Shown here: piece after piece, positions 106 to 63,747 of the stretch
Numbering within the stretch: the first letter of the stretch is position 1
Layout of the letters: every line of letters begins with the position of its first letter
Origin: Prorocentrum cordatum
Taxonomy: Eukaryota > Sar > Dinophyceae > Prorocentrales > Prorocentraceae
Length of the DNA: 64,000 nucleotides
Assembly: GCA_963575745.1 (NCBI GenBank)
Contig: CAUYUJ010015285.1
Location: forward strand, 1-64,000
Direction: 5' to 3'
Made by a program: the position numbers and the translations under genes
The notes under the pieces: model-generated
The model's database searches: none
What the model saw: only the letters and a program-made list of their open reading frames with translations
Told to the model about the DNA's origin: nothing

Positions 106-244
106 GCTGCTGGAGAAGAAGGCGGGCAGGCTCCAGGAGCAGCACCGCGCGGAGGCGGAGGCGCGCGCCCGCGCGGAGGCGCGCGAGGAGGCGCTGAGGA
201 GGCAGAACCAGGAGCTGTCCGACCAGATCGGCGCGCACGCCAAG
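106..244 (+). CDS. Exon 1: charged coiled coil
   Basis: Reads LLEKKAGRLQEQ, then repeated Ala/Glu/Arg heptads, ending near SDQIGAHAK. This is typical coiled-coil composition with very high GC3. The acceptor is taken as GAG|G at 105/106, since an in-frame stop lies at 77-79. The exon ends AAG|GAGCTC (GA donor); AGGAGCT recurs at the next exon start (1881-1887). The gene must extend upstream, because no initiator is seen. The partner of the coiled coil is unknown. Confidence 0.65.
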
Positions 245-685
245 GAGCTCGGTTCGGTGATCCTCAGGACGTATATTGGCCCGAACGTGTACTTACGGTC
301 GACGGGGCTTTGCCCTCTCCTGGCCCTGACGTGAGGCCCCCTCCTTCGGCCCCCCTCTCGTTAATCCAAGCGGTGCGCGGCCCGCTTAGCGTCGACCAGA
401 AGAGGTGCGCTCTCGACCCGCGGATCAGAAAAGTGCTTACAGTCGGGGCGCTGAAGAAGGAACCCTTTTCGTTGGGGAGGGGCTCTGTGTTCCTTGAGTG
501 CTCTGCACTTTGCCTTAGGTTTTGCTGAGGTTTTCCATGGGAAATCGCTGTTTAACCTACTGGGAAAAGGGGCCTCGTTCCTTGCTTAGGGTTCCTTAAG
601 TCAACGCCCCGACTCTACCCGTTCGGGCTCCGCCGACAGCAGGCAGTCTGTGCCGGCCCTCTTGGAGCCGCCTGCGTCAATTTTT

Positions 686-874
686 AAGTCGGGCCTGTCC
701 TCCTACAGGGGGATTTTCGACGAAAAATGAAAAATACCCCAAGAATACCCCAAAAAGGTCCAAAGATATTCAAACTATAGTCCCCAGACTATTGTCGGAA
801 TATGTTTGGATCATTTCTGGGGTATTGTTTTATGTTTCGTCGAAGATCCCCCTGTAGGGGGACAGGCCCGACTT
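686..874. mobile_element. Family A inverted-repeat element (A1)
   Basis: Left end AAGTCGGGCCTGTC is mirrored by GACAGGCCCGACTT at the right end. Inner arms are ACAGGGGGATTTTCGACGAA and its complement, and the core includes TAGTCCCCAGACTA. Non-coding and MITE-like. No clear flanking duplication here. Confidence 0.8.
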
Positions 875-1282
875 GAGGCCAGGGCTTCGGGCAAAGCCCC
901 GCCGCCTTCGGAGAAGGCCTGCCCCCCTCTTAGCTTCCCCCATCGGCGCGCCGCCGCCCTGAGCGGAAGCTTTGGCGGGCGTTGGTCTCACAAGGCCGGG
1001 TGCTCGACGTTTCGGTTTGCTCTCTTCCTCTGCGGCTGGGCCTTCGAGGGCTCCTCTGGGGAGCAGGAAGAGTGCGGAGGAGGGGGAGGAGTAAGAGGTC
1101 GCCTCTCTGTGGGTACGTCTGACGGGCTCAGTTTGAGGGGCCTCGGTGGACAGCGGCACGCGTTGGTGCCGAGGCGCGCTCTGAGAGCCCTCGAGCGGTG
1201 GCAGCTCCCGGGAGCCCCGCGTGCCCCCGAGAGTCCGCCCTCGGAGGGTGCGTTCGCGGGCGCCGGCGTCTTTGGTAGTCTT

Positions 1283-1499
1283 AAGTCGGGCCTGTCCCCC
1301 TACAGGGGGATTTTCGACGAAGATTCAAACATACCCCAAAAATAAGCAAGAAATAGTCCAGAAATGGTCTGGGGACTATTTTTTGAGTTTTTTTTTTTTT
1401 TTTTTTTTTTGTTTTTTTTTGTTTTGTCTTTTTGGGGTATTTGTGGTGGTATGTTTCATTTTTCGTCGAAGCCCCCCTGTAGAGGGACACGCCCGACAT
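1283..1499. mobile_element. Family A element (A2) with 7-bp duplication
   Basis: Same terminal arms as A1, with a long T-run in the core. GGTAGTC stands at 1274-1280 and 1503-1509, just outside the arms, consistent with a target-site duplication. Confidence 0.82.
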
Positions 1500-1882
1500 A
1501 ACGGTAGTCGGGAAGCACCGATTTAGCATCGTCTAGCGTCGATTAGCATCGACCTAGCGTCGACGAGCACCGATTGGCGTCGGGTAGCGTCGGAAGGCGT
1601 CGATGCGCAGGAGCCACCAGGATGGCGTGGGAGGCCCCCAGGATCTGCCACAGAATCAAGGGAGGAGGCACCACCCGGACGGGACAATGGGCGCTTACTA
1701 AACGGCCCTGGGCGTTTACTAAACAGCCCAGCCCTGTTTGATTGCTTCGCTTACTAAACGGCCCTGGGCGTTTAATAAACAGCCCAGCCCTGTTTGATTC
1801 CTTCTTTGGGTGCGTTTGCTACACGGCTTCGCGTGTCGGCGTGGTGATTATCGGGGTGGATTTCCTGCCCAATACAGACGAG

Positions 1883-1996
1883 GAGCTGGCAAGTCTGCAG
1901 AGGCAGGGGGACGTCGCCCAGCTGGTGGAGGGCCGGGTGCAGGCGGAGTCCCGCGAGGCCGTGCTGCGCAGGCAGAGCGAGGTGCTCGCCGCGCAG
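1883..1996 (+). CDS. Exon 2: coiled coil
   Basis: Reads ELASLQRQGDVAQLVEG, VQAESREAVLRRQSEVLAAQ. Heptad-like with regular Leu/Val. It joins exon 1 in phase 0 through the repeated AGGAGCT and ends CAG|GTAGGG (GT donor). Upstream bases up to about 1868 belong to a dispersed repeat, which fixes the start here. Confidence 0.75.
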
Positions 1997-2155
1997 GTAG
2001 GGGGCCACATTTGAACCCTACCCCTATCCCCAACGATTTCTGAGGGGGAGGGTGGGGTTCACTTCGTTCGGGAGCTCCCGAGCGGAGTGAACCCCACCCT
2101 CCCCCTCAGAAATCGTGGGGGGTAGGGGTAGGGTTCGCATGTGGCCCCCTAGCAG
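1997..2155 (+). mobile_element. Intron 2 = complete inverted-repeat introner (family L, 159 bp)
   Basis: The whole intron is a near-perfect hairpin. GGGGCCACATTTGAACCCTA at the start is mirrored by TAGGGTTCGCATGTGGCCCC at the end, and the arms run on through CCCCTCAGAAATCG to a small loop around 2065-2085. GCAGGT occurs at 1993-1998 and 2152-2157, so the duplication supplies the splice junctions. A left-half relative lies at 17277-17345. Canonical GT-AG, phase 0. Confidence 0.9.
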
Positions 2156-2197
2156 GTGCACCGCAAGGACCAGGAGCTCGAGAGGCTCCGGAAGCAG
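2156..2197 (+). CDS. Exon 3: 14-codon coiled-coil microexon
   Basis: Reads VHRKDQELERLRKQ. The end is set at CAG|GTCTGC because CAGGTCT recurs at the next acceptor (6197-6203). An alternative longer reading to about 2222 (VCESTAELA) is open but lacks a matching partner site. Phase 0 on both sides. Confidence 0.65.
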
Positions 2198-2871: not shown

Positions 2872-3042
2872 ACATTGTGCTTATACCGTTGACTTGCTCC
2901 TCGAAGCACGTAATTGTCTGCCCGCCCAGGGGGGAGAGCAGAGGGGGCTGGATTTTCGGAGGGCTGAGAAGGCCTCCGCCCTTCTGGGAAGCTTTCTGAG
3001 CCTTCTCCGAAGCCGCAGAGGTCTTCTCAGAAGGCCAGGGTT

Positions 3043-3232
3043 ATGTCGGGCTTGTCCCCCATACAGGGGGATTTTCGACGACAAATAAACAATACCCCAA
3101 GAATACCCCAAAAAGGTAAAACAAAATTCAAAAAATAGTCCCCAGACTATTTTTGGATTATGTTTGGATTATGTTTGGGGTACTTTTTTATTTTTCGTCG
3201 AAAATCCCCCTGTAGGGGGACAGGCCCGACTT
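3043..3232. mobile_element. Family A element (A3) with 8-bp duplication
   Basis: Terminal arms as in A1. GGCCAGGG at 3033-3040 and again at 3235-3242 brackets the element exactly. Confidence 0.85.
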
Positions 3233-3989
3233 ACGGCCAGGGCTTCGGGCAAAGCCCCGCCGCCTTCGGAGAAGGCTTGCCCCCCTCTTAGCTTCCCCAT
3301 CGGCGCGCCGCCGCCCTGAGCGGAAGCCATGGGTATTTTCACAGGCACTCGCTGATCTCTTGGGTCTGCGCTGGACTGGGCCCCCCTGGCGGCCCCTGGC
3401 GCGCCAGGGAGGGGGGCTCCGTCGCCGATCCAGACAATCTACGCGAAGCTCCGAAAGCTGGTGTTTATGCCGATGTGTGTGTGCGTTTGTGGTTGATGCT
3501 ACCATTTTGTTGTTTTTTTCTGTGGGCCGTTTTGTGTCTGCTGCTATACACTACCTTGGAAAGGTAATGCAACTCTCGCGCGCGGTCCGTCTCCCCGCGG
3601 GCCGACTTTCAATGTTCAGCACGATTCCGCGCAATTTGATTTTCTCTCGTCGGCCACGGCTGACTCAACATTGAGACCGGGGGGCGCGGCGGGGGGGGCG
3701 AACAAATAAAAAATAGTTGAATTACTTTTCCTAAGGAGTGAAGGAACCATTTTGTTGGTTGTTGCTCAGATTTGCCATTCCTATAATGTGCATGTTATCC
3801 GTTGTTCTTCCGAGAGCCACCCAGCCTGAAGCTCCGGAAGCTGGTGTTCATGTCGATGTGTGTGTGTGTGTGTGTTTGCTGTTTCTGCGTCCTACAGAAT
3901 TTCATGTTGTTTGATCGCTTCGCTCACTCCGCCGGCCCATTATTGCATCATTGGTTATAGATTTTGATGTCTTCGCGGCGAGCGAGTAT

Positions 3990-5483: not shown

Positions 5484-6048
5484 GGCTTCGAGCAGGGTCG
5501 AGGTGTGAGGGCCCCGGTGCGCGAAAAACTTGGCGAGAGCGCCCGTTGCGGAAGAGCTGCAGCGCCCAGCTTTGAGGCTGTGCCGGCTCCTCCAGGAGCC
5601 GCCCAGCGCCTCCGCGCTCGGGCAGGTCTCGGGGGGGACGAAAACACACAGGCCTCCTCCTCCCTCCTACTCCGAATCCTTCCTCCTTAATCCTCTCTAA
5701 CCTCCTCCTCCTCCGCCTTCACACCCAATTGCTAGGTTGATGCTCGCTTTTGCGGTGCTTTTCTACGCCATGCACGCCTGCTCTACATTGCATCGCGTTA
5801 CCCTTTCGGGATCATTGCCCTGCTCCGACATCCGACTGTGGAGTAGAGAGGGGATCTCTGCGCCATAGGTAAGGGATGGGAGGGAGGGGTAGGATGTCAG
5901 ATATGACGCGAGCGCACCTAGCTTGTTCACACCCCCTCCTCCTCCTCCTCCTTCGCCTCCTCCTCCTTCGCCTCCTCCTCCTTCGCCTCCTCCTCCTTCG
6001 CCTCCTCCTCCTCCTCCTGAACCTCCTCCTCCTCCTCCTCCTCGGGCA

Positions 6049-6199
6049 GGTTCAGGAGGATTATTCGTCGATCCCCCAGAAAATATGGGAAAATATGGGA
6101 AGTGGGGGGGGAGGCAAAAGCCCAGAAAGTACGGGAAAATATGGGGCATCCTGTCATTTGTGTGTATATTTACCTGTGTGTCCCCGGGCCCCTTCACAG
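6049..6199. mobile_element. Family G intron-end element
   Basis: Contains CCCCAGAAAATATGGGAAAA twice in related form, then TTTGTGTGTATATTTACCTG and GGGCCCCTTCACAG at the acceptor. Related copies: 15083-15225, 54163-54320, 57353-57528 and, inverted, 52697-52833. It supplies the AG of the 3' splice site. Confidence 0.75.
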
Positions 6200-6328
6200 G
6201 TCTCGGTGCAGTGCAAGGCGCCGTGCTGCGCGCCCCTGCTGCGGATGGCCAAGGCCGGCCTGAACGGCGAGCCGCTCAGGGAGCTGGACGCGCTGTGGGC
6301 GGGGCGGGTGTTCGCCCTGCTGGGCGAG
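6200..6328 (+). CDS. Exon 4
   Basis: Reads VSVQCKAPCCAPLLRMAKAG, then LRELDALWAGRVFALLGE. Phase 0. The end is set at GAG|GAGACC because AGGAG also precedes the exon 5 start (6327-6331 and 11407-11411). The next few codons (ETR) run into a family D element. No domain recognised; amphipathic and helical. Its 3' end recurs as a 38-bp copy at 6701-6738. Confidence 0.7.
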
Positions 6329-11408: not shown

Positions 11409-11534
11409 GAGTCGTCTTTCCGGGAGCTCGTCCGCGAGTTCCTCCCCAAGCTGTCGGACGATCACGTCACGCGCCTCCTCCACTTCGCAGACCGGGGAGG
11501 GGCGGGCCGCCTGACCTTCCAGGAGTTTCTGCAG
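11409..11534 (+). CDS. Exon 5: EF-hand-like
   Basis: Reads ESSFRELVREFLPKLSDDHV, then LLHFADRGGAGRLTFQEFLQ. The loop D-R-G-G-A-G-R-L-T-F-Q-E keeps Asp1, Gly6 and Glu12 but has Gly and Ala at positions 3 and 5, so calcium binding is doubtful. Phase 0 at both ends; acceptor CTCCAG|GAG, donor CAG|GACGTG (GA). Near-identical 14-mers GCAGGACGTGGGGC and GCAGGCCGTGGGGC mark the two sides of intron 5. Confidence 0.75.
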
Positions 11535-11720
11535 GACGTGGGGCGGCGTCAGAGGGGGGATGGGCTCAGGGAGGCGCACGAAACCGAAAAAAACACAGGA
11601 AATGGACGTCCGAGCGATGGCGAGATGGGGGCTTGACAGCCCACCCCGCCAGGAAGTGCGCGGATTCGCGATCGAGGGCCCATCGCCAGTCCATATTATC
11701 GGCGATGTACCGCCGAGTCC

Positions 11721-12038
11721 ATGTCGGTGTCCCCCCCCCTGCGGGACTCGGCCCCTACAGTGCCGTTTTTAATACATGCTCCGCGTGCGGATCATGTGTC
11801 AAAAATGCACGGATTTAGTATTAAAAACAACGATGAGTTCATGCATAAATTCATTCATAAATGAATCATGTGTGAAAACCATATATGTTTAAACATCCTA
11901 TGTCTTAAAAACTGCCCTGTACCCCTCAAATAATCAAAAAATAGTCCCCAGAGTATGTTTTTTAGCATTTTTGAATTATTTTGGGTGTATCTTTAATTTT
12001 TCGCCGAAATCCCCCTGTAGGGGGACAGGCCCGACTTA
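11721..12038. mobile_element. Family A element split by a family B insertion (A5/B1)
   Basis: The left terminus is degenerate (ATGTCGGTGTCCCCCCCCCT); the right terminus GGGGGACAGGCCCGACTTAA ends near 12038. Family B sits inside at about 11757-11921 with ends TACAGTGCCGTTTTT and AAAAACTGCCCTGTA. The order shows B inserted after A. Confidence 0.65.
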
Positions 12039-12239
12039 ACCCTAGCGTTAATGGAGGATGACGATTAATATATGACCCGGGGTCGTGTTCACGCGGCGGC
12101 GCCCCGGATGACGATTAGAAAAAGCCGGCCGCGGGCTGGAAAACTATTGCGAAGGCCTGACGGCCGGTGCCGCCGACCCTGTTCGCAATGCGCAGCAAGA
12201 GGCACGGGCTGTGGGATGGTTTGGGGGAACGGGGAGAAG

Positions 12240-13400
12240 GACGAGAAGGTGGGGGAGGGAGGTGTCGTATCTGACCCGGGACTTCCCCGGGACTCCCCCG
12301 GGACCCCCCCCGGGACCTCCTCTCCCCCCCCCGTCGGGGGAGGGAAAGGGAAGGGGCTTCCCTTCGACTGAATTACGACGTTGCTCAAGGTCGGTACGGG
12401 GGGGGGGCGTCGTATCTGACCCGGGGGGGGGGTCGCTACCCCCCTCCCCTCCCGGCGGGGAAGGGATCAAAGGGAAGGGGGACCGGGGGGGGGTGATACC
12501 CCACCCCCTTCCCGGCGGGGAAGGGAAAAGGGAAGGGGCTCCCTCGACGAATTACGACGTTGCTCAAGTCGGTACGGGAGGGGGGTGTCATAACCCGGGA
12601 GTAGGATCGCTCCCCCCCCCCTCCTGGCGGGGGAGGGAAAGGGAAGGGGTTTTTCATTCGACGGAATACGACGTTGCTCAAGGTCGGTACGGGGGGGGGG
12701 CGTCGTATCTGACAGGGGGGGGGGTCGTACCCCCCCCCCTCTTCCGGCGGGGGAGGGATCAAAGGGAAGGGGCTTCCCTTCGACTGAATTACGACGTTGC
12801 TCAAGGTCGGTACGGGGGGGGGCGTCGTATCTGACCCGGGGGGGGGGTCGCTACCCCCCTACCCCCCATCCCCCTCCCGGCGGGGGAGGGATCAAAGGGA
12901 AGGGGCTTCCCTTCGACTGAATTACGACGTTGCTCAAGGTCGGTACGGGGGGGGGGCGTCGTATCTGACCCGGGGGGGGGGTCGCTACCCCCACCCCCTC
13001 TCCAGCGGGAAGGGCGGGGGGCGTCGTATTGACCGGGGGGGGGGTCGATACCCCCCCCCCCCCCTCCCGGCGGGGAAGGGATCAAAGGGAAGGGGCTTCC
13101 CTTCGACTGAATTACGACGTTGCTCAAGGTCGATACGACGGGGGGCTCGTATCGACCCGGGGGGGGGGTCGATACCCCCCCCCCCCCCCCCCGGCGGGGA
13201 AGGGATCAAAGGGAAGGGGCTTCCCTTCGACTGAATTACGACGTTGCTCAAGGTCGGCTTGGCTCGAGCGGGGGGCGGGGGCGGCGTCGTATCTGACCCG
13301 GGGGGGGGTCGATACCCCTCCCCCCCCCCGGCGGGGGAGGGATCAAAGGGAAGGGGCTTCCCTTCGACACAATTACGAGGTTGCTCAAGGTCGGCTTGGC
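12240..13400. repeat. Tandem G/C-run repeat array
   Basis: Repeated module: AATTACGACGTTGCTCAAGG, TCGGTACGGGG, GTCGTATCTGACCCGGG, a C-run with CCCGGCGGGG, then GGGATCAAAGGGAAGGGGCT and TCCCTTCGACTGAATTACGA. At least eight units of variable length, with poly-G facing poly-C so that each unit can fold. Confidence 0.85.
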
Positions 13401-13641
13401 TGGAGCCCAGGGGAAGAGGTCTCCCAGGGAAAGGGAAGGACAGAGACGACGAGTACAAAGAATGACGGAGATGACGGCTCGAACGGAAAAGCCCCTCACA
13501 CACGCCGACAGGGTCGGCGGATTTTTCTTATAATCGTTCTCCTCCAGTCAGAAACTTGTGCAGAAATCGCAGAAAGCTATTCTTTGAATCGTTCTCTCTC
13601 ATTTTTTATATGAATCGTCATCCTGCATTGCCCCATCGCAG

Positions 13642-13779
13642 GCCGTGGGGCACGACGTGCAGGGCCGCATGGGGGAGGAGTACTTCGACCACGTGATGGT
13701 CCGCATGGAGGCGGCCGTCGCCAGGCAGGGGGGCCTGCCGGCCGTGTTCCAGCTGAACGACTGGTACCTGCACGGGACG
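13642..13779 (+). CDS. Exon 6: helical EF-hand linker
   Basis: Reads AVGHDVQGRMGEEYFDHVMV, then RMEAAVARQGG, ending FQLNDWYLHGT. Acceptor ATCGCAG|GCC, donor GGGACG|GTGCCCC (GT). GGTGCC(C/G)CG recurs at the exon 7 acceptor. The exon end CACGGGACGGTGCCCCG is repeated just beyond the following (CCT)n tract. Confidence 0.75.
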
Positions 13780-48405: not shown

Positions 48406-48419
48406 GCCTTCTTCGAGGA

Positions 48420-49201: not shown

Positions 49202-49365
49202 GAGTGCCACAAGCGCGGCATCTCGGGAGCGGAAAAGAGGGGGGTGATGACTGGGGGGGGGGGATCTCATGGCGGGGGCCATGGTATTTCCCCAGATTTC
49301 ATGGCGCCCCCTCTTAGTTCATTGCGCCCCTGGCCCCCCCGCTGGGCCGCGCACGCGCCCCCGCC
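49202..49365 (+). pseudogene. Decoy copy of exon 20 end plus intron 20
   Basis: GGAGTGCCACAAGCGCGGCA, TCTCGGGAGCGGAAAAGAGG and GGGTGATGACTGGGGGG repeat 46149-46312. A shorter third copy of the intron part is at 48972-49015. No HLDLKP follows, so it is not a usable exon. Confidence 0.85.
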
Positions 49366-49938
49366 GCGCCCGGGCGGGGGCGACGGACGCGCGCAGGAGC
49401 AGGAGAGGGAAAGGCTTAGGTCGGGCCTGTCTCCTTACAGGGGGATTTGACGAAAAACAAGAATTACCCTCAAAAATTATCTTAAAATACTCCAAACATA
49501 GTCTGGGGACTATTTGTTGAGTATCTTTTGACCTTTTGGGGGTATTTTTTGGGGGTATTTTTGGGGCAGGGGAGGGAAAGGCCCGCCCCGACCCCCATCA
49601 CTCAAGCAGCGGCGAAGCGTCCTGGCTCGCCTACTAGCCCCACCAAACAGTGTTGTAAGAACCTCTTGTGGCTCCCACGGAATGTTCTTAGGACATTTCT
49701 GGCGGAGACTGTCATGTTTTGCCACCTCGGGCTTATGTTCTGAGAACATTGTTTTTGCTCTTAGAACATTTTGGGGTCCTATGAACACTTCGTGGTAGGA
49801 CTATAGGAATGCCGGGACGGTCGGCCCCTGCTCAACAGGAGCAGGGGAGGGAAGGGCCCGCCCCGACCCCCACCACGGGCGCCTTCACTCGTTAGGCAGT
49901 CCTCGGCGTTCCCCCGGGAGACTCGGAGGAGAAGATTA

Positions 49939-50138
49939 TTGCAGGCCTAGAGATTGACACCAACACCAATATCGGCGGTGTGCCTCCGCCGAGGGAAGAC
50001 GATCCCGATCTCGGTGGTGGTGGTAATATTCTGGCTTCCAAGGTGGCCGAAATATTGCCACCAATACCGAAATCTAGGATCATGTTCCCCATGTGGATGC
50101 AACCCCCTGTGTTGGTGTTGGTGCCCATTTCTAGGCCT
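49939..50138. mobile_element. Family I hairpin element (I2) with AAGATTA duplication
   Basis: GCAGGCCTAGAGATTGACAC to TTGGTGCCCATTTCTAGGCC. AAGATTA lies just outside on both sides (about 49932-49938 and 50141-50147). Confidence 0.82.
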
Positions 50139-50571
50139 CCAAGATTACGGATGCCGCTGCCCTTCCCTCGCCGCCACGGCCGGCTTCGTTTCGAAACTCG
50201 GGCCAGAACACGGGGAGCCGCGGTATCGGTACCTGCTTGTCTCCCCGGGGCCCTGTCTTGTTCTCATCCATCGACGTCTTGTTCCCCGACCCCCTTATCT
50301 GGCATGTGCTACAACCCTCGACAACATTAACCTCGCAAGTTGTTGACGCGCCCCTTCGATGTCGCCTCTCTTTCCGGCCCTGCAACCTCGCGCCCTTCCA
50401 TGCCGAAGCAGACTGGAGCGTGGCCTGGGGCTGGCGCGACTCGTTAGTTCCACGATGACCGCCCATTGAAAGTGGGCGTCAACAAGTGACTTCGCAGGCA
50501 ACGCGCTTTTCGAGGCTGAGTCCGACGAGGGTAGTAGGCAGTCTTGGGCGTTCACTACATAGGCTCACTTG

Positions 50572-50700
50572 GCATCGCTCGGACGTGTGCGTTTTTCCTT
50601 CGGCGAGGACCATCGAGGACCATCCTTGATCATTCGGCGAAAAAACCACGCACGAAACCGAAAAAAACACAGGGAATGGACGTCCGAGCGATGGCCAGTA
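50572..50700. mobile_element. Family J element
   Basis: TTGGCATCGCTCGGACGTGT to GGAATGGACGTCCGAGCGAT; inner arms CGAGGACCATCGAGGACCAT and CCTTGATCATTCGGCG. Confidence 0.75.
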
Positions 50701-50973
50701 CCATGGTTTTCGTAGGACTGCGCTAAATCTGGAAGGTCGTTAGGAGAAGGCAGATTTACCGGGGGTCGTGCTCACGCGGCGGCGCCCGGGAGGACGATTA
50801 GAAAAAAACCAGCCGCGGGCTGGAAAACTATGTCTTTAATCGTTCTCCTCCAGTCAGAAACTTGTGCAGAAACAGCAGGAAACTATGTTTGAATCGTTCT
50901 CTCCCATTTTTTTTATCAATCGTCATCCCGCAGTAGGCTCAGCAGAGGACGAGATACTGATGCCGCTACCCTC

Positions 50974-51220
50974 CCTGACTCCGGATCCGCCCTACTTTGG
51001 GGAAATTCGTAAGTGGGGCTTGGAATTTCCGCCTTACTTTTCAAGCCCCGCTGCTGCCAATTTCCGCCCTACTGTTCTGTTGCTGTTTCTGTCGGTTTCC
51101 GCCCTATTGTATGTTGGGTGCAGCAATTTCCGCCCTACTTTTTCGGCCTCTTCTAGGTGGATTTCCCACGCAATTTTGAGTTGGAAAAAAGCCAAAGTAG
51201 GGCGGATCCGGAGTCAGGGC
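50974..51220. mobile_element. Family E element (complete)
   Basis: CTGACTCCGGATCCGCCCTA to AGGGCGGATCCGGAGTCAGG. Inside are TTTCCGCCCTACT motifs spaced about 40 bp apart. Near-identical to 48545-48787; relatives at about 16750-16906, 42805-43029, 46600-46760 and 59747-59902. Confidence 0.85.
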
Positions 51221-52295
51221 TGCCCTCGTCGCCCCGGCGGGATTCGGCGGCTCCGCGAGTCCCGACCCCCTTGCCCAGGGCCTGGAGGCCCTCTCGGATG
51301 GTCTCGGGGGCGAGGCCCGAGCCTCCCGGGCGGTCTCGGACGCCCAGAAGCCCTGAGAGCAGATCACCTGGTCTACTCAGCCTCCACGCCACCCAGTCTC
51401 TGGGCGGGGCGCCGTCGCCGAATCCGTCTTTTGCAAAGTGCACCTAATGTTCGGGACCGCCGCCGCCGCCGCGAATTTGCATCGGCTGTTTGTAAGACTG
51501 CCTTCAGCCCACCCCGCTACCGCGCCTGGGCCGTGGGCCAGAGGCCTCGTCGCGGTTGCGCGTTTGCTCCCTTCGAAACAGAATTGTGTTGTGCAATTCG
51601 TCGCGGTTGCGCGGTTGTTCCTTTTGTGTGGGTGTTTCGGGCCTGGGGGGGGGGGATCAGAAGAATTATGTTGTGTAATTCGTCGCGGTGGCATGGGGAG
51701 TTCGGGTCTAGGGGGGGTAAACGACGGCGAAGCGTGATATTTCCAGACATTTCTTGGACATGTTTTGTTACTTGTGCTTTCGGCGCGCGCTCGTGGGTTG
51801 AAGGTTTCGCTTGATGTTGGAAGCGATTGCGGGCGCTTTCGGATAAGAGAACGGAGGTATTTTTGAATTGGGTTGCGGCGTCGGATTCCGGCTCGTATTT
51901 CGCGGCCCGACGATCTTCAAATCAAAATATATGTGGTAAGCATGTACGCACGCATGCGCGCGAGTTAAGCACGTCTACATACATTACCTACACCGATATC
52001 TTTCCATGCTCATGTCACGTAGTACATATAGTGTGCGCAGAGTCCGCCGCCCTCGTCTTTATATTGTCGGTTTGGCTTTTGCGCGCGGCCGCCGCCAATT
52101 TTTCGTAACACTTACTTAGGGTCCGGGGCGTTGGCCGCCAGATTTGGGACCCCCCCTGCATAGTGTTTTTATTTTTGTTCGTCGCCGCCGTGGGAATTCT
52201 GGTGAAGATTTTTTCTCGAGTGTCGACCTGGTGATGAGAGCAGGGCATCCCCAAACCATGCAAAAGCCTTGGACAATCCATGTTTTTCTGCGTTC

Positions 52296-52520
52296 TGGAG
52301 GAGGAGGAGGAGGAGGAGGAGGAGGAGGAGGGGAGAGGAGGAGGAGGAGGGGAAGGGGGAGGAGGAGGAGGAGGAAGGGGAGGAGGAGGAGGAGGAGGAG
52401 AGGAGGAGGAGGAGGAGGAGGGGGGGAGGAGGAGGAGGAGGAGGAGGAGGAGGAGGAGGAGGAGGGATGAGGAGGAGGAGGGCGGAGGAGGAGGAGGGAG
52501 GAGGAGGAGGAATCCATGTT
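52296..52520. repeat. (AGG)n tract between 25-bp direct repeats
   Basis: AATCCATGTTTTTCTGCGTT at 52276 and AATCCATGTTTTTTCTGCGT at 52511, both followed by CTGGA, bracket the tract. Confidence 0.88.
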
Positions 52521-52696
52521 TTTTCTGCGTTCTGGAAGCCTCTTGGGGGGGGGAGGTCCTCTGGGTCGTCCTCGTGCGTCTGCTGTCGCCCCAGTGAGTC
52601 CACGTCTGGTGGTCCCTCCTGGGGCCGGACGGCGGGCCCCGAGGAGGCCGAAGGTCGGGGCGAAGCGCCCGGGCAGCGAAGGGCATCCCTGAAGGG

Positions 52697-52833
52697 GCCC
52701 CAGGACACCCAAATAGATACACACAAAGCAAAAGATCCCCCATAGGTTCCCATATTTTCCCAAATTCCATATTTTCCCATATCTTCTTGGGGACCGGCGA
52801 TTCATTGTGTCTGTGTGTGTGTTTTCTTCCTCC
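52697..52833. mobile_element. Family G element, inverted
   Basis: GGGGCCCCAGGACACCCAAA to CATTGTGTCTGTGTGTGTGT, with CCATATTTTCCCATATCTTC, all complementary to the forward copies. Confidence 0.75.
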
Positions 52834-54162
52834 TGGATACCGTCGAGAACTCTGGGCAGAGAAGAGCATACAGTGAGCGGCTTGAATGAGGAACGCTGAC
52901 TTTTCAAAAGGGGCTCGGTCGTTCCTTAGGCTCTACCTGCGTTATGCATCGTTCCCTGTGCGTTGTGTATTATTTGTTCCTCGTTCCCTGTGCGTTATTC
53001 CTTGGAGGAAAGGGGCCTCGTTCCTTGTTTATCGTTCCTTAGGTCAGACCGATGGCCGTACCGTCGGGAGATCTGGGTCAGACACCTGGCCTGGGGGCGT
53101 TCCTGAAAGGGCCTCGCTCGCAGGGGTACTTACAGGCCTCGGAAAAAATTAGCGAACACTCATGCCACATTCATCTGTGAACGCCTCCCCCTCCCCCCAA
53201 TATTCAAAGTTGGCGGTGGGTCTGATGAGTTGCACCTCGACCGCAGTCTCCCCCCCGCGTGCCAACCTTGAGTTTGGGGGGCAGGGGGGGTGTTCACTAA
53301 TTGTTTCCCTCTACCGTACCATGGTTTTCGCAGGACTGCGCCAAATCTGAAAGGTCATCACATGAGAAAGCAGAGGTTCACGCCGAGGTTCTGAATCATC
53401 GCGCGTGTTTCCATGCTGGCAGCACGATGGCAACCAGATCACCCATAGCGATTCACTACCAGGAGCCGACGTGATATCTTGTATTTGCGGTTTTGGGTTT
53501 GACATAAGAAAGCCGATTATTTGATGCAACGTTCCGTGATAACAAAATCGTCCAATGTTTGACACGTTGGCGCAGCTTGGATCGGAGATGCCCGGTTAGG
53601 CGCGCGGAGCCTGGTACAACGTGACGGGGGTAGAGCTGTGACAGCGAGAGTCGGGGAACCTGGGGCTTGCACTTCCAACTCGATGCTTACAAGGCTAAGC
53701 GGGATGGCGGTCTGGAAACGGCGAGCCGCGCGGAGTTTCGTCGCAACAGGGGATCGAACCAGGTTCGAAGGTCGGCTCGACACAGGGAGCCGCGGAAGGC
53801 ACGCCGGGAGCCCCGGGAGATTTTAGGAATTTGGGGTTCGGGCCCTTTAGCGCTGTGGAGGGCGATCAGTGGAGAGGGAGCACGTTGCCAAATAATTTCC
53901 AGATGTCTAGAAGATGTCTCAAACCATATTAAAAACATGTTTAAGACATGTTCGGAACATTTTTAGAACATGTTTTACACATGTTTAACACATCTTTAAT
54001 TCAATGATAGGATTGTTAGAGTGTCCATTGTTGTGGCATCCATAGCTTTAGCGTTCAATCCTGAAGAGTAAGGAATGGTGAGGACCACAACGGGCCTGAG
54101 TGCATTCCAGCGTGTGCCTCGCGGCACGGAGGCGGACTGAAGGGCTTCGGTGTGCTTATTTC

Positions 54163-54320
54163 AGGAGGGAAAGAAACACACAGACACAATGAATCGGCGA
54201 TTCCCAGAAAACATGGGAAAATATGGGACCTGGGGGGGAAGACAGAAACCCAGAAAATATGGGAAAATATGGGGATATTCTTATTCGTGTGTATTTATGT
54301 GTGTGTCCCAGTTCCCCTTC
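54163..54320. mobile_element. Family G element
   Basis: CAGGAGGGAAAGAAACACAC to GTGTGTGTCCCAGTTCCCCT, with two AAAATATGGGAAAATATGGG-type blocks. Confidence 0.78.
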
Positions 54321-54449
54321 ATTATTGCCAGGGTGGTCTTTGTGCCCTCCTGCAGGCTCGAGCCCTTTCCCCAGGCTGGCCCCTGGCCACGTCCAGCAGG
54401 CCCCCCACTCGCCCCGCAGAGCTGCCCAGACGCCCCGAGAGGCCCTCCT

Positions 54450-55036
54450 CTCTCCTCCTCCCTCCTCCTCCTCCTCCTCCTCCTCCTCCTCCTCCTCCTC
54501 CTCCTCCCCTCCTCCTCCTCCTCCTCCTCCTCCTCCTCCTCCTCCTCCTCCTCCTCCTCCTCCTCCCCCTCCCCCTCCTCCTCCTCCTCCTCCTCCTCCT
54601 CCTCCTCCTCCTCCTCCTCCTCCTCCTCCTCCTCCTGCAGGGGCCTGCGCAGAGGCCGCCGCCGCGCCTGCGCGTGGACGCCGCGGCCGCGGAGGGCACG
54701 GAGGTGCAGCTGCCCGCGGAGGGCGCCGAGATCGCCGCCTGGGAGGCCCGGAGAGCCGAGGGAAGGAGCATAGTGGCCACGACCAAGTGTATCCTCCCCC
54801 CTCCTCCTCCTCCTCCTCCTCCTCCTCCTCCTCCTCCTCCTCCTCCTCCTCCTCCTCCTCCTCCTCCCTCCTCCTCCTCCTCCTCCTCCTCCTCCTCCTC
54901 CTCCTCCTCCTCCTCCTCCTCCTCCTCCTCCTCCTCCTCCTCCTCCTCCTCCTCCTCCTCCTCCTCCTCCTCCTCCTCCTCCTCCTCCTCCTCCTCCTCC
55001 TCCTCCTCCTCCTCCTCTCCCCCTCCCCCTCCCCCT
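54450..55036. repeat. Two (CCT)n tracts around a GC-rich segment
   Basis: CCT units at 54450-54635 and 54797-55036, the second being one of the purest in the window. The 150 bp between them look coding (see next entry). Confidence 0.9.
54640..54787 (+). CDS. Candidate cassette exon between two CCT tracts
   Basis: After TGCAG| it reads GPAQRPPPRLRVDAAAAEGT, EVQLPAEGAEIAAWEARRAE. Codon use is GC3-rich like the accepted exons, and phase 0 would fit between exons 22 and 23, adding residues in the activation segment. Against it: no junction repeat, and no clear donor (GAG|GCCCGG at about 54750 or a later site). It may equally be a gene fragment carried in the intron. Confidence 0.35.
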
Positions 55037-57217: not shown

Positions 57218-57352
57218 GCGTTCGCACCCTTCGCCCTGCTGATCGGCGTCGGCTCCCCGTGGTACATGTCTCCCGCGCGCTGGTGCGACTTCACTCTGAA
57301 GCACCAGAAGACGGACGTCACTCAGCCGGCGCTGCGATTGTGGAAGGATCAG
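57218..57352 (+). CDS. Exon 23: probable kinase activation-loop end
   Basis: Reads AFAPFALLIGVGSPWYMSPA, then RWCDFTLKHQKTDV. G-S-P-W-Y-M-S-P-A resembles G-T-P-x-Y-M-x-P-E of kinase subdomain VIII with the Glu changed to Ala, and KTDV lies where the subdomain IX Asp is expected. The start CCGAAG|GCG fits exon 22 in phase and by AGGC(C/G)TTC; the frame is also open upstream to about 57134. Donor CAG|GAGGGG (GA). No helices F-I follow, so the C-lobe would be truncated. Confidence 0.6.
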
Positions 57353-57528
57353 GAGGGGAAAAAACACAGACACAATGAAGCGTCAGACACAATGAAGCGT
57401 CGATTCCCCAGAAAATGTTGGAAAATATGGGAAATGGGGGGAAGACAGAAACCCTGAAAATATATGAAAATATTGGGAATCTTTTTATTTGTGTGAATTT
57501 ATTTGTGTGTCCCAGGGCCCCTTCAAAG
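57353..57528 (+). mobile_element. Intron 23 = family G element (176 bp, GA-AG)
   Basis: GAGGGGAAAAAACACAGACA to GTCCCAGGGCCCCTTCAAAG. The intron is the element itself. AGGAG at 57351-57355 and 57527-57531 restores GATCAG/GAGCCT in frame. Confidence 0.88.
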
Positions 57529-59187
57529 GAGCCTGGGCAGTTCGATCAGACGCCGTGGGTGCGCAGTGGTGAGGACGAGGGCGACATGGACATCATCACG
57601 GCGAGGGAGGCGACCGAGTCTGGGCTGGCGTTCCAGGCAACGCGGCCCGCGCCCACCTTCCCCGACGGGGCTTATTTCGAGGTGGTGCTCCTGAAGGTCT
57701 GGCCACCCCAGCAGCTGTCCGGCTGCGTCGACCGTCACGACGGGCCCGTGGGCTTTGCAGTGGGCTTCACCCGCACGCCGCCGCACCTCAACGACGCGAG
57801 GCGGTGCCGGGCTCGGAAGCAGCCCAACAGCTGGGTGGTGGGCTACGACGGGCGATTCTTCGAGAACGGCCAAGAGGTCCCGACCCAGGACGAGGCCTCC
57901 GAGGACGGCCGGGAGCAGATGCGGGACCGGCGAAGGCTCTCGGCCGCGCAGGCAGCCCAGCCCGACGTGCTGGGCGGCACCCGCTCCGCGCAGGCCCACT
58001 CGCAGATGGCGTGGCCCATCGGCCCCATGGGCTTCTCCCTCGCGGAGCTGCAGCGGAACGACCGGCTCGGCGTGATGGCGACCGAGTCGGGGCACCTCGT
58101 CCTCTTCGTCAACGACGCCATGATCTGCAAGGTCAAGGCCACGAACCTGAGCGCCCGCGAGCCGCTGTACCCGCTCGTCGAGATCTGCGGCGTGGCCCGC
58201 GAGATCGGCCTGGTGCCGCGCCCGCGCGGCCCGCGCGGCCTGGAGGAGTCGCACCGCGCCCACGACCACATGGCCTCCACCTGCGAGCGCCTGGCCCCGC
58301 ACGCGGAGACGACCTACGCGGACATCTACGCCGCGGCGGCCATCGTGCAGGAGTGCTTCTGCAGCACCGCCAGGCCGACCGTGCCCTCGGCGTTCCTGCA
58401 GCTGCTGTCGGCGGTCTCCTCGTGGATCCAGCAGGGGTGCCCCGAAGTCGCGCTCCACGGCGACATGCTGCTCGCCCTCACGAGGTGGTCCAAGACCTCG
58501 CGCGTGCAGAGTGGCCTCGACCCCGGCATCGCCGATGTGCTCCAGCGCGTCTTCAGCGCCGCGGGGGCACCGCCCAATGTCCTCGGTGCCGCGGGCACGA
58601 TCTGCTCCGCGCGGCAGCTCCGGATGGCCCTGAACGAGAAGACCGGTTGCCGCCACGTCTCGCCCGAGTTCCTGGGCAGCCACGCGAAGGCGGTCACCCA
58701 GGCCACGAACTTGCGGAGGTTCTTGCACCAGGGCCTGCGCGAGAGAGACTCCGCGCCGCAGAGGCTCGACGCCGAGCTGTGGGACATCAGGCCCTGGACG
58801 CTCTCCGCCTCGCACATCCGCCACGTGGTCCTGGTCCTCCAGTCCGAGCTCGAGGGCCACATCTGGAGGGTGGGCATCTCGAAGCTCGAGGCCAACGTTC
58901 CCCTGGAGCTGAAGCTCCAGCTGGTCAAGTGCTTCAACCGCACCCTGCAGACCGTGAACGGCGACGGCGACGAGCCGGCGCCGTCCAGCGGCAGCTCCCG
59001 CAGCACCCGCAGGCGGCCTGGCATCGTCGGCTTCCACGCCGTGCCTTCGCTGCAGTTCGAGAGCTTCCCGCTCCCAGCGGACGCATGCCCCGTGTCGTTC
59101 GCGCGCTTGCAGGAGGCGAACGCCGTGGGCGTCGTGCTTCACTTTGTTCGCCGCGTCAGCCTGGGCCAGGGGCTCTCGGAGACGCCG
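57529..59187 (+). CDS. Exon 24: Neuralized/SPRY-like domain plus helical region (553 codons)
   Basis: By far the largest exon. From about 57660 to 58220 it resembles a Neuralized homology repeat or SPRY-type beta sandwich: VGFAVGFTRTPP, SWVVGYDGRFFENGQ, WPIGPMGFSLAEL, then LQRNDRLGVMATESGHLVLF, VNDAMICKV, PLYPLVEICG. These domains bind protein partners (family knowledge). The remaining 320 residues are helical (YADIYAAAAIVQECFC, SASHIRHVVLVLQSELEGHI) without a recognised family. Acceptor TTCAAAG|GAG, donor ACGCCG|GTGGCC (GT). Extending past 59187 to a stop at 59439 loses GC3 bias. A 539-aa antisense frame over the same DNA is a shadow. Confidence 0.85.
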
Positions 59188-60233: not shown

Positions 60234-60370
60234 GTGGGCACCGCAGGCGCCGCACAGCTGGCGGAGGCGCTGCACGGCAACGTGCTCCTGCAGGAGCTGG
60301 AGGCCCCTGGCCAGGGCTTCGGCGACGAGGGCGCAGCGCTGCTGAGCGACGCGCTGCAGGGGGGCACCAG
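60234..60370 (+). CDS. Exon 25: leucine-rich repeat 1
   Basis: Reads VGTAGAAQLAEALHGNVLLQ, then ELEAPGQGFGDEGAALLSDA. Matches the ribonuclease-inhibitor/NOD-type LRR pattern (L-x-x-L-x-L, G-D-x-G-A-x-x-L-x-x-A-L). Acceptor CTCCAG|GTG. Donor ACCAG|GCCCTG (GC); CCAGGC recurs at 61017-61022. Phase 2. Confidence 0.88.
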
Positions 60371-61020
60371 GCCCTGGTCCATTCGACGGGTGGCGGGGGT
60401 GGCCTCCTCCTCCTCCTCCTCCTCCTCCTCCTCCTCCTCCTCCTCCTCCTCCTCCTCCTCCTCCTCCTCCTCCTCCCCCTCACACTCCTCCACCTCCTCC
60501 TCCTCCTCCCTCCTCCTCCCTCCTCCTCATCCTCCTCCTCCTCCTGAACCTCCTCCTCGGTGGGGCTCGGAGTTCGTCAGGTGGCGGGGGGGGGGGGCGG
60601 TTCGGAGTTCGACGAACGCGAGGCGATATCAATCTTGCCCGCACCCAGCGAGGCCCTGCGAGCCTCTCGAGTGCCCGGCCCGCGACCCCGCCTGCAGCAC
60701 CGTGCGGCCGACGGCCTGCACGGTCGCTTCTTCGAGCACCGCCTTGCGGATCGGCGATCCGACCGATCCGACCCGATCTCGGCTTTGGCCAGCTGGCTCA
60801 CGCCACTTCCGATCGGCACATAGGCCGTGTCCTGCTGCCGGCCAGCTGGATGCGACTCGACTCCCGTCTTCTGGCGCTCCGATGCGGCCCGAGGCTCGCA
60901 CGGCGGCGCTGGGCATGCCAGCGCGACCGAGCCGATGCGGTCCTCGACTCCGTGCCGCTGCAGGCCGATGCAGGCCGCGCCTTCCGATCCGAGTCGCTGT
61001 TCCGCTCCGGTGCCTGCCAG
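60371..61020 (+). other. Intron 25 (650 bp, GC-AG)
   Basis: CCAGGC duplication. Contains a CCT tract (60400-60545) and GATCGGCGATCCGACCGATC-type sequence (60740-60990). Confidence 0.78.
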
Positions 61021-61171
61021 GCTGCGCCACCTGCGCCTCGGCGGCAACGGCATCGGCGACGCTGGGGCCCAGGCGCTCGCAGCCGCGCTGCGGGCGCCCG
61101 CCTGCGAGCTGCAGCTCCTCGACCTGGCCGGCAACGCGCTGGGCGACTCGGGCTGCACCGTGCTGGCGGAG
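61021..61171 (+). CDS. Exon 26: leucine-rich repeats 2-3
   Basis: Reads LRHLRLGGNGIGDAGAQALA, then LQLLDLAGNALGDSGCTVLA. Two textbook LRR units of about 28 residues. Donor GCGGAG|GCTTGC (GC); GCGGAGGC at 61166-61173 and 62066-62073. Phase 0. Confidence 0.92.
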
Positions 61172-62071
61172 GCTTGCAGCCCAGCGCTGGTTCCGGTCAA
61201 CCCAAGACTCAGAGCGTGAATTACCTACCCCGCTTTCGCTTCCAGGCAAAACCAAGCCATACCACGCGCCTCCTCGTCAAGCGGCCTGACCAGTACAGGC
61301 CGCAATTTGGCATCGTTTGGTATCTCTTGGAAGCGAGGGTTGTCAAAAGCGAGGTAGGTTTGTTTTCCCCCGAAAGACGGCCCAGGAGGCTTCCAAGAGG
61401 ACCTCCAGGAAGGCCAGTGAAGGCCCACATCATTCATTTTCAATCAACTGTTGAAGGATTTGGCGTTTGTTCAAGTACGGCTTTCTGACGACCCAAGACG
61501 GCCCCAGAGGCCACCGAGATGGCCCCAAGAGCGCCCACGAGGCCTCAGAGATGGCCTCCTGACTGTCCAAGAGGCCGCCAAGACGGCCCCCAAGAGGGCC
61601 CCTAAACGGCCCAAGAGACCTTCAAGGCACGCAAGATGGCATCCAAGACGGCCCTGAAGTGCCCCAAGAAGGCCCGAAGCCGGCCCAGACAGGCCCCCAA
61701 GCAGGCTTCCGACGGCGTCAGACGGGCCAGGAACGCCATCAGACAGCCCAAGTGCTTCCCAAGGAGCCTCCACATGCCCCCAAGAGGCCCAAGGAAGTCC
61801 CCAAGAGGCCTCCAAGAAGGCAGGACGGGGGGGAAGAGGTTCGAGCCTCTGGGTTCGAGAAGATCTTTCGCCTGTGCGGCCTCTGGGCGCCGTGTTCGGG
61901 CTCCGGGCCCGTGAGAAACACGGACCCGGGGTGAAAAGCCGCACCAGGTGGACCAGGGAGGGCTCTGGGGACCGATCTTAAGCGGATTTGCCTTTCAGCC
62001 ATCGGCCCCCCTTCTTGACTGATTTTCCTGGGGGCCACCCAGTTCAGACCCCCGGCCGCCTCCAAGCGGAG
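61172..62071 (+). other. Intron 26 (900 bp, GC-AG) with 8-bp duplication
   Basis: Contains the GGCCCAAGAGGCCTCCAAG-type minisatellite (61375-61830) related to the 20-27 kb blocks, including CATCATTCATTTTCAATCAA where those blocks have AATCATTGATTTTCC. Confidence 0.85.
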
Positions 62072-62225
62072 GCCGTGCAGAAGAACGCCCACCTGTGCAG
62101 CCTCGTGCTGCGGCGCAACGGCATCGGGCCCGACGGGGCCACGGCCCTCGCGGACGCCCTGATGTACAACCACGCGCTGACGGAGCTCGACCTGGGCCAG
62201 AACTCCGTCGACGCTGCGGGCGCAG
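62072..62225 (+). CDS. Exon 27: leucine-rich repeats 3-4
   Basis: Reads AVQKNAHLCSLVLRRNGIGP, then GATALADALMYNHALTELDL, GQNSVDAAGA. Donor CGCAG|GCCGAC (GC); CGCAGG at 62221-62226 and 62405-62410. Phase 1. Confidence 0.92.
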
Positions 62226-62409
62226 GCCGACGATCGGCGCTTGATCCATACCCCTGCTGCTGCCCCCCCCCCCAGGAAGCAGAGGGCATGGATGAGAACT
62301 TTGCCTCGGAGGCCAGGAATCTATGCTGCCAGGAATCGATGCTGCCCCAGCTCTGGCTCCTTGTAGGGTTGGGGCGGAAGCAGGGGCGTGATTTAAATCC
62401 CGATCGCAG
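62226..62409 (+). mobile_element. Intron 27 (184 bp, GC-AG) with 6-bp duplication
   Basis: The inserted unit equals the intron. It includes a C-run and a doubled AGGAATC(T/G)ATGCTGCC motif (62323 and 62341). No clear inverted termini. Confidence 0.82.
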
Positions 62410-62584
62410 GTGCCCTCGCCAGGGCCACCAGGGTCAACGTCTCGCTCGCCTCGCTGAGCCTGCAGGGCAACTCCCTGGACATGCGCGCGGCGGTGTGCCT
62501 CGCGGAGGCGCTCGCTGGCGAGCCCTGCGAGTTCCCCCCCAACATCGACAAGCCCCGCTTCGCGACCCGCGCGGCGGGCGCGAG
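62410..62584 (+). CDS. Exon 28: leucine-rich repeat 5
   Basis: Reads ALARATRVNVSLASLSLQGN, then SLDMRAAVCLAEALAGEPCE, PPNIDKPRFATRAAGA. Without splicing a TGA follows at 62592-62594; the 10-bp junction repeat GAGGCCCGAG shows how the frame is rescued. GC donor, phase 2. Confidence 0.9.
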
Positions 62585-62961
62585 GCCCGAGTGACGAAGC
62601 AATGCATCAGCATATTAAGCTTTCGGAGCTCCGCCCGGAGTTCTTCTGCATCTGCGCTGGACTCCCCTCCCTGGCGCTCCCTGGCGTGCTCCGCGCGCCA
62701 GGGAGGGAGGGCCCGGCGCCGATCCGACCAGTCCGAGCGGAGCTCCGGAGGCTTATGCCGATGCCGTGTGTTTCGGGGGTGGACAGAACCCCCAACAGTG
62801 ACACGTCGATTAGTGAATTGTCCGTTTTCGGCTCTCGAGAGGGCGCCGCGGCCGTTATTTTCCAGGCTCGCGCCCGCCAGGTTTGGGCCTCAGGTCGTTT
62901 TCACGAAACCACGTTTTACTAAAGGGGGGTCTGTCCATCCCCGAGTGTTATGCTTCTTGAG
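62585..62961 (+). mobile_element. Intron 28 (377 bp, GC-AG) with 10-bp duplication
   Basis: GAGGCCCGAG at 62582-62591 and 62959-62968. Holds a family F unit (62617-62754) and a second inverted pair CGGGGGTGGACAGAACCCCC (62774) and GGGGGGTCTGTCCATCCCCG (62923). Confidence 0.92.
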
Positions 62962-63171
62962 GCCCGAGGGGGCGAGGGCCTCGTGGTCGCCCCGCAACTC
63001 CGCCGCCACCCTGGCCGCCAACATGCTCAACGACGCGCGGAGCCGCGCGAACCAGGGCAGCTGCCTCCAGCGGCTCGACCTGCGCCGCAACTCGCTGGGC
63101 AGCACGGGCGCCGCCACGCTGCTAGAGGCACTCCGCGGCAGCACCCGGCTGACGTCCATCAGCCTGGCCTG
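62962..63171 (+). CDS. Exon 29: leucine-rich repeats 6-7
   Basis: Reads PEGARASWSPRNSAATLAAN, then LQRLDLRRNSLGSTGAATLL, LRGSTRLTSISLAW. Donor CCTG|GAACTC (GA); GGAAC recurs at 63397-63401. Phase 2. Confidence 0.9.
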
Positions 63172-63397
63172 GAACTCGGGACGATCGAAATGGGTACGGG
63201 AAGAGTGGGCGCGAAGACCAACATCATATACTGGCCATTTTGAACAGGCTTCGTTGCCGGCGTCGCCGCGGACGGTGTCCACGTGGGACGGAAGACCGCC
63301 TGCCCAACAGCGGCCGATGTCGGTTTTGGACGACATTTTTTGTTGTTGTTGGGCATCGTACCCTTTTTTGTTCCGTACCCGCTTCGGGCGTCCGAAG
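63172..63397 (+). mobile_element. Intron 29 = inverted-repeat introner (226 bp, GA-AG)
   Basis: CGGGACGATCGAAATGGGTA at the left is matched, imperfectly, by the complement of TACCCGCTTCGGGCGTCCG at the right. GGAAC at 63171-63175 and 63397-63401 restores LAW/NELGL in frame. Confidence 0.87.
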
Positions 63398-63747
63398 GAA
63401 CGAGCTGGGCCTCGAGGCCTCCGCGGCGGTGGCGGAGCTGTTCAGGCCCGGCTCCCAGTGCGCGCTGCGGGAGCTGGATCTGAGGGACAACCGCCTGGGC
63501 GAGTTCTCCGCGCTGGGCCGCGCCTTGGAGGGCATGGCCAGGCACATCCTCGAGCGGTCCGGCGACGGGGCGAACAGCTCCAAGGGATCCGCGCGGTCCT
63601 CCAGCAAGCGGCCCTCGGCGCGAGGGGGCTCGAAGGAGGCCCCCTCGCAGTCGAGGAAGAGCACGCAGGAGGAGGTCCTGCCGCGCCGCGGCACGCTCGC
63701 CCCCCCGGGTCCGGACGCCATTGTGGTGCAGGAGCTCGGGCCTCGCG
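63398..63747 (+). CDS. Exon 30: last LRR and Ser/Lys-rich tail
   Basis: Reads NELGLEASAAVAELFRPGSQ, then ALRELDLRDNRLGEFSALGR, followed by ANSSKGSARSSSKRPSARGG and further Ser/Arg/Pro. A basic, probably disordered tail. The 3' end is not firm: family C starts at 63751, and CTCGCG|GAACCC (GA) could join GCCGCAG|GAAAGG near the window end. The gene continues past 64,000. Confidence 0.8.

Follow-up and report, generated by a model that had tools for sequence, protein, structure and literature searches.

The 64,000-nucleotide stretch of Prorocentrum cordatum DNA analysed here (contig CAUYUJ010015285.1, positions 1 to 64,000, forward strand; the whole stretch is called the window) has a mean guanine plus cytosine content of about 60% and carries an intron-rich gene, the host gene, whose introns are the subject of this analysis.

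Host gene, 107..63747, plus strand: 35 modelled exons, 34 introns and a single open frame of 2040 codons.

The gene model was obtained with a codon model using G donors and AG acceptors, which was retrained on the window and gave short plus-strand exons that were then refined. The encoded protein contains a coiled coil (by eye), an EF-hand-like region, a protein kinase, a SPRY/Neuralized-like region and leucine-rich repeats. In the Pfam search of the host protein, the kinase and the leucine-rich repeats scored above the cut-off, and EF-hand, Neuralized and SPRY scored below it. Two homologs of the C-terminal part were found, P0001 (42% identity over 98% of the 883-residue query) and P0002 (38% identity, 98% of the query). 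The gene extends past the window to about 66.0 kilobases (kb) of the contig, where at least four further exons match P0001/P0002. The N-terminal half, used as a protein query, gave no homolog, and residues 1-600 of the middle part matched mostly bacterial-type kinases and no whole-length homolog; the placing of junctions e1 to e22 therefore depends on coding score and repeats.

At least seven of the 34 introns (e2, e8, e17, e23, e24, e27 and e33), and about half of them as judged from the excess of junction repeats, very probably originated from the insertion of non-autonomous DNA transposons in exons. The features of these seven introns are as follows, with repeat lengths in base pairs (bp).

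Intron e2, 1993..2156, plus strand: GCAGG duplication (1993-1997 and 2152-2156), inverted repeats at offset 0/0.
Interior of intron e2, 1998-2151, plus strand: family P, a 154-bp near-perfect palindrome with a terminus common to e10.
Intron e8, 15399..16359, plus strand: AGGTGGACC duplication (11 bp with further matches), family B, 3' end common to e17.
Intron e17, 40508..40748, plus strand: AGGAGGCCG duplication (10 bp with one more base), 223-bp family B element.
Intron e23, in the kinase catalytic loop, 46164..46368, plus strand: GGCATC duplication, diagonal fixed by P0002.
Element of intron e23, 46170-46362, plus strand: family D, inverted repeats TCGGGAGCGG abutting the duplication (0/0), terminus common to e25.
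Intron e24, 48414..48904, plus strand: CGAGGAG 7-bp duplication, 477-bp family C element, inverted repeats at offset 1/1.
Intron e27, 57344..57530, plus strand: AAGGA 5-bp duplication, family E element at 57349-57525 (TCAGGAGGGG...CCCCTTCA), GA donor.
Intron e33, inside a leucine-rich repeat, 63171..63401, plus strand: GGAAC duplication, inverted repeats at offset 3/3.

The AG of both the donor and the acceptor of e2 comes from the duplication; the donor G also comes from the duplication and the donor T from the element. Intron e2 is almost entirely a hairpin (RNA fold -170.8 kcal/mol, z -20.4). The terminal inverted repeat of e8 was read by eye, the automatic inverted-repeat search having missed this intron, and the inverted repeats of e17 are GGCAAGTCATGGGGGCC and GGCTCCCATGAGTTGCC at offset 7/5. 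The acceptor AG of e23 consists of the element-terminal A and the G of the duplication, and the exon join within the kinase catalytic loop reads KRGITHLDLKPSAV, compared with ARGVTHMDLKPSVI in P0002. Another repeat is nested inside the e24 element.

If the junction repeats are target-site duplications, element ends are predicted just inside them. Duplications lay 0-3 bp from inverted repeats at e2 (5 bp), e23 (6 bp), e24 (7 bp) and e33 (5 bp), and element ends coincided with splice sites at e2, e23, e24, e27 and e33, and at e37 beyond the window. Terminal inverted repeats were present at e2, e17, e23, e24, e33 and e37, and were imperfect at e31. The inverted-repeat scores of matched intron ends summed to 694, compared with 466 in 20,000 permutations (standard deviation 37, maximum 690). 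Among the matches listed, which covered the ends of e12 to e22 in part, terminal sequence was common to the intron pairs e8/e17, e23/e25, e2/e10, e3/e27 and e5/e32. Not every one of these cases marks the origin of an intron: at e3 and e10 the element does not make up the whole intron, only a left end is recognisable in e10, and the family E copy at e3 seems to have inserted into an already existing acceptor. When element ends were sought at the 34 introns, none was identified for most of them.

Family E element at the e3 acceptor, 6047..6201, plus strand: CAGGT duplication.

An earlier note on this DNA listed repeats of 18, 14 (with one mismatch), 11, 10, 8 and 7 bp at the splice junctions, and all of them are present in the sequence. 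The 18-bp repeat is ATTCGGAGGCCGACCGCG (29114-29131 and 29288-29305), and the 14-bp repeat, read off as GCAGG[A/C]CGTGGGGC, starts at 11531 and 13638. The 11-bp repeat starts at 15399 and 16351, the 10-bp repeats at 33449 and 35574 and at 62582 and 62959, and two 8-bp repeats at 41564 and 41932 and at 61166 and 62066; the third 8-bp repeat is CCAGGAGG if the small exon e18 is skipped (by eye). The 7-bp repeats belong to introns 1 and 3 in the numbering of that note, which counted 29 introns and gave no coordinates for each; the present model has five more (34), as far as the numbering can be mapped.

Repeat length was compared with chance by pairing every donor exon with every acceptor exon under the same rules and taking the best repeat that had a G donor and an AG acceptor, kept the frame and introduced no stop. 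Repeats of at least 5, 6, 7 and 8 bp were found in 29, 22, 14 and 8 of the 34 true pairs, respectively, and in 478 (44%), 239, 98 and 27 of the 1089 mismatched pairs, respectively. The summed repeat length was 227, compared with a permuted mean of 152.7 (standard deviation 7.3, maximum 189.8; 20,000 permutations), and an earlier 32-intron model gave a sum of 188 compared with 120.9 (standard deviation 9.5). Random AG|G pairs with no choice of junction (1285 unmasked sites) reached 5, 6 and 7 bp in 19%, 7% and 2.5% of cases, respectively. The excess of repeats in aggregate is thus beyond doubt. A repeat of 5-6 bp at any one intron is little proof of insertion, and such single cases were not taken as evidence by themselves because 478 of the 1089 mismatched pairs reached 5 bp. 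The count of 27 introns with repeats out of 29 was accordingly too high: when the null is allowed for, 74% of introns carry a true repeat at 5 bp or more, 55% at 6 bp or more and 35% at 7 bp or more.

Junctions were also fixed by protein homology, because choosing them by their repeats would be circular. For nine junctions, in-frame donor/acceptor pairs were scored against P0001 and P0002 (P0002 alone for two) without any splice rule, and the best diagonal was taken. Twelve introns overlap the homologs; e24, e25 and e32 were left out for lack of alignment. The longest exact runs on the fixed diagonals were 6 (GGCATC), 4, 4, 2, 2, 6 (CCAGGC), 8 (GCGGAGGC), 6 (CGCAGG) and 5 (GGAAC), a sum of 43 compared with 23.6 (standard deviation 3.16), and none of 100,000 simulations was as high. 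At seven of the nine junctions the protein register relative to the homologs was kept, under the modelled splicing, with the repeat on the fixed diagonal. Three introns beyond the window (e35, e36 and e37), in previously unseen DNA, were then scored, with e34>e35 left out. GGAGCT (6 bp) was found at e36 and GCAGG (5 bp) at e37, and p was 0.004 for the three.

Dispersed families were compared in 183 kb of genome. This comparison covered 9 of about 12 places of family E, with the partial copies at 15079, 96728 and 97058 left out, as were partial copies of families D, K and C.

Family A example copy, 3041..3234, plus strand: TTAAGTCGGGC...GCCCGACTTAA.

Family A elements are 129-221 bp long with 8-bp duplications, and 12 paired copies were found at 684-56372 of the window, all within modelled introns; 20 left ends were seen, and the 8 without a partner in range were left out. 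At least six of the eight duplicated positions matched in 11 of the 12 paired copies. These nested copies are an internal positive control, and none of them forms an intron in the model. For family E, five of the nine copies had an exact 5-bp duplication at unshifted ends (AAGGA, CAGGT, TTATT, TATTC and TTAGC), and one copy (L007 6085-6237, C13749:66085-66237) had an exact 14-bp flanking repeat, GCCATTGATCACAA. For family K, duplications were found in three of five copies: GCAGG (intron e37, the last intron found beyond the window), GAAAGG and GTAAG. The GAAAGG copy (C14436:64460-64587, L009) has its duplication at the acceptor of intron e34, and no clear coding piece was found upstream of its left end. 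All four AGG-containing duplications of families E and K (AAGGA, CAGGT, GCAGG and GAAAGG) lie at splice junctions, whereas none of the five without AGG (TTATT, TTAGC, TATTC, GTAAG and the 14-bp one) does; these numbers are small, and junction status was judged inside the modelled gene. Because of this division, the copies of E and K away from splice sites suggest selection among random insertions and not targeting.

The donors of the 34 introns were GC (14), GA (10), GT (9) and GG (1), and in 30 introns the opening dinucleotide was identical to that of the exon that follows. For the second donor base alone, identity with the second base of the following exon was 88%, compared with 31% after permutation, a value that is biased, the junctions being partly chosen by repeat. 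Two arrangements were found among the clear cases. In e2, e8, e17, e24 and e27 both AG dinucleotides come from the duplication, while in e23 and e33 the acceptor AG is made of the element-terminal A and the G of the duplication. GG donors (1 of 34) are rarer than exonic AGGG (42 of 177), indicating that the spliceosome still selects.

Under the proposed mechanism, short elements, several of them with terminal inverted repeats, would insert into exons and duplicate 5-9 bp of target. Where the target holds AG|GN, or a G that comes to lie beside an element-terminal A, the left and right copies could serve as the 5' and 3' splice sites, respectively. Splicing, if it proceeds as modelled, would then remove the element together with one copy of the duplication and leave the mRNA unchanged. 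The elements would presumably be moved by a transposase acting in trans, and AGG would be enriched by selection and not by targeting.

Several observations weigh against insertion as the source of the introns. About half of the introns have repeats of a length that mismatched pairs often reach; examples with no more than 4-5 bp, which is chance level, are e5, e18, e20, e21, e22, e23b and e26, while the e12 repeat is only 2 bp under equal-choice rules, and at e35>e36, immediately beyond the window, the 3 bp found are what chance would give. On the diagonal preferred by the homologs, e27 and e28 show runs of only 2 bp, in a gapped alignment. The homologs score another diagonal higher at e27; this was set aside, so that the e27 junction was placed from the element boundary. 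Of 32 introns, only 2 score above the 99% point (38) of the mismatched inverted-repeat scores and two score exactly at it, and the score of e14 stems from a nested family A element. The inverted-repeat search found none in e11, the intron with the 18-bp repeat, or in e30, and the inverted repeats of family E are weak. No clear duplication was seen in three of nine family E copies, two of five family K copies, three of four family D copies and the second X copy, and a perfect 7-bp duplication in only one of four family C copies.

One alternative is that the splice consensus alone produced the repeats, with AG|G needed at both ends, short matches forced, and longer ones due to luck and free choice of boundary. 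That 44% of mismatched exon pairs reach 5 bp under equal freedom, and that seven or more introns have only 4-5 bp, agrees with it, and for about half of the introns taken one by one it is a viable account. As a complete account it is refuted by the repeat sums (227 compared with 152.7 overall, 43 compared with 23.6 at homology-fixed junctions) and by the inverted repeats found at the repeats, and we regard it as very improbable. Repair of staggered double-strand breaks with filler DNA, which would leave repeats of any length without transposition and turn the filler into an intron, is unlikely. It would suit e11, where the 18-bp repeat surrounds purine-rich filler without inverted repeats, the family E copy with the 14-bp repeat, and two direct duplications that flank inserted DNA, one of 38 bp (6305-6342 and 6703-6740, by eye) and one of about 80 bp (about 15005-15080 and 15224-15306; 68 bp at 91%, the rest by eye). 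Both direct duplications are far longer than the usual 5-9 bp, and they and e11, whose origin may differ from that of the other introns, may be explained by such repair. Most clear cases, however, need transposition, because element termini are shared and the repeat length is typical of each family (A 8, E 5, K 5-6).

It is also conceivable that the introns are old and that the elements, which only appear causal, arrived later in splice sites that were already present. This fits the family E copy (CAGGT) at the e3 acceptor, the end of a 4-kb intron, the family K copy (GAAAGG) at the e34 acceptor beyond the window, where the upstream sequence holds no clear coding piece, and the nested elements in many introns. 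It does not fit e2, e23, e27 and e33, in which element plus duplications equal the whole intron, nor e24, where the same holds with one nested repeat, and we consider it improbable. Tandem duplication of AGG-containing exon segments, with the intron as a mutated exon copy, is the account we find hardest to credit. It would explain why 49198-49412 contains duplicated tail segments of exons e23 and e25 (by eye), but the ends or interiors of e2, e8, e17, e23, e24 and e27 match dispersed elements. Transposon insertion is well supported for a share of the introns by duplications 0-3 bp from inverted repeats, by shared termini and by seven of nine homology-fixed junctions. The mass gain by introner-type insertion proposed in the earlier note stands for about seven introns directly and for about half by repeat excess; its extension to nearly the whole gene is not supported, given the several introns with only 4-5 bp, the 2 bp at e12, the 3 bp at e35>e36 and the 18-bp intron without inverted repeats.

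The remaining introns with listed repeats are the following.

Intron e6, 11531..13651, plus strand: 14-bp repeat with one mismatch.
Intron e11, 29114..29305, plus strand: exact repeat of 18 bp, enclosing 156 bp of purine-rich DNA that lacks inverted repeats.
Intron e14, 33449..35583, plus strand: 10-bp repeat AGGCCTTCGA, two nested family A elements.
Intron e15, 35746..37816, plus strand: 9-bp repeat GAAGGACGT, upstream of the proposed exon e15b.
Intron e19, 41564..41939, plus strand: 8-bp repeat CGAGGCCC, one nested family A element.
Intron e25, 48955..54643, plus strand: GCAGGGG repeat, start near family D terminus TCGGGGGCGG.
Intron e29, 60367..61022, plus strand: CCAGGC repeat on the homology-fixed diagonal.
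Intron e30, 61166..62073, plus strand: 8-bp repeat GCGGAGGC on the homology-fixed diagonal.
Intron e31, 62221..62410, plus strand: CGCAGG on the homology-fixed diagonal, imperfect inverted repeats at offset 6/0.
Intron e32, 62582..62968, plus strand: 10-bp repeat GAGGCCCGAG, family F terminus common to e5.

A matching right end of family D was sought in e25 and not found. In the patch at 49198-49412 of this intron, a copy of the exon e23 tail and family D is joined to a copy of exon e25 (by eye), which suggests exchange between elements. The 11.7-kb intron e10 contains a dense nest of inverted repeats at 20301-26757 of the window, reaching 182 bp with 94% complementarity. The stretch 29922-30125, considered as an exon, was rejected, since its reverse complement recurs next to tandem repeats at 8508-8594 and 10169-10384 (by eye). 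Tandem arrays with a unit of approximately 84 bp lie in opposite orientations at about 7550-10160 and 30120-31800 of the window, each adjoining the open stretch FVAVFAGADDDKDGVPLTEEQ... at 8508-8594, 10169-10384 and 29922-30125, and together resemble a dispersed element carrying a gene piece (all by eye). Part of the interior of the SPRY exon has a decayed copy at C13749:58814-59791 (L002, L003 and L006); 50 kb fetched around it gave no match to any other host-gene exon, and no empty intron site was found in this decayed internal piece of one exon. The Rfam scan gave nothing at gathering thresholds, and no relatives were found in the viral contigs scanned.

Roy et al. 2023, which PMC11453091 summarises, is said to be the central paper on introners. 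Introner elements are known in dinoflagellates and other algae, and the available text of two reports (PMC9860276, PMC11453091) describes short elements with target-site duplications, inverted repeats in some families, splice sites co-opted partly or wholly from the duplication, and many families per genome, all as in the host gene, so that no difference in kind from these accounts is apparent. The host gene by itself combines families with 5, 6, 7 and 9 bp duplications, and as a rule the duplication supplies both splice sites. Introners have already been reported in P. cordatum itself, with inverted repeats at both intron ends and short direct repeats as here, according to the part of that report available (PMC10666404). 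The donor spectrum given there, GC 51.4%, GT 24.7% and GA 23.8%, resembles that of the host gene (PMC10666404, in the same part). The pattern search described in that part used inverted repeats of 8-20 nucleotides and direct repeats of 3-5 nucleotides at most 30 bases from the ends, whereas several host-gene repeats are 6-11 bp long, which such a search may count by their shorter core. In the available account of Amoebophrya (PMC7789003), introners likewise have a direct repeat across the exon/intron border and hairpin-capable inverted repeats; their boundaries vary widely, a contrast that is no test here, as the AG acceptors were imposed by the model. Border repeats, including those of Symbiodinium introns, are also read as insertion scars in the accessible part of PMC11782384; its null assumes equal base frequencies, while the null used here keeps splice consensus, frame and boundary choice, under which 44% of mismatched pairs reach 5 bp. 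We found no gene-level dissection of introns of this kind in the openly available literature.

The host gene shows similar termini at different intron positions, element ends at splice sites, duplications beyond consensus and inverted repeats, and those of its introns that probably arose by insertion would belong to the already known introner elements. Intron making by mobile elements is a known process, of which this gene is an unusually readable example. Whether an element becomes an introner in the P. cordatum genome could, at slightly less than an even chance, depend on the target site instead of the element, with the donor spectrum (GC more frequent than GA and GT) inherited from exonic AGGN instead of reflecting a choice by the spliceosome. 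Elements of an ordinary kind, E and K among them, might likewise land anywhere with arbitrary 5-6 bp duplications, a possibility we rate just short of evenly balanced; if this target-site reading is true, an AG|GN duplication supplies both splice sites. Junction repeats of 5-6 bp by themselves are weak evidence of insertion, since mismatched pairs often reach them. Under the modelled splicing, a single gene shows, intron by intron, transposons turning into introns without harm to the protein, and this suggests a testable explanation of the relaxed donor use (GC/GA/GT) in dinoflagellates.

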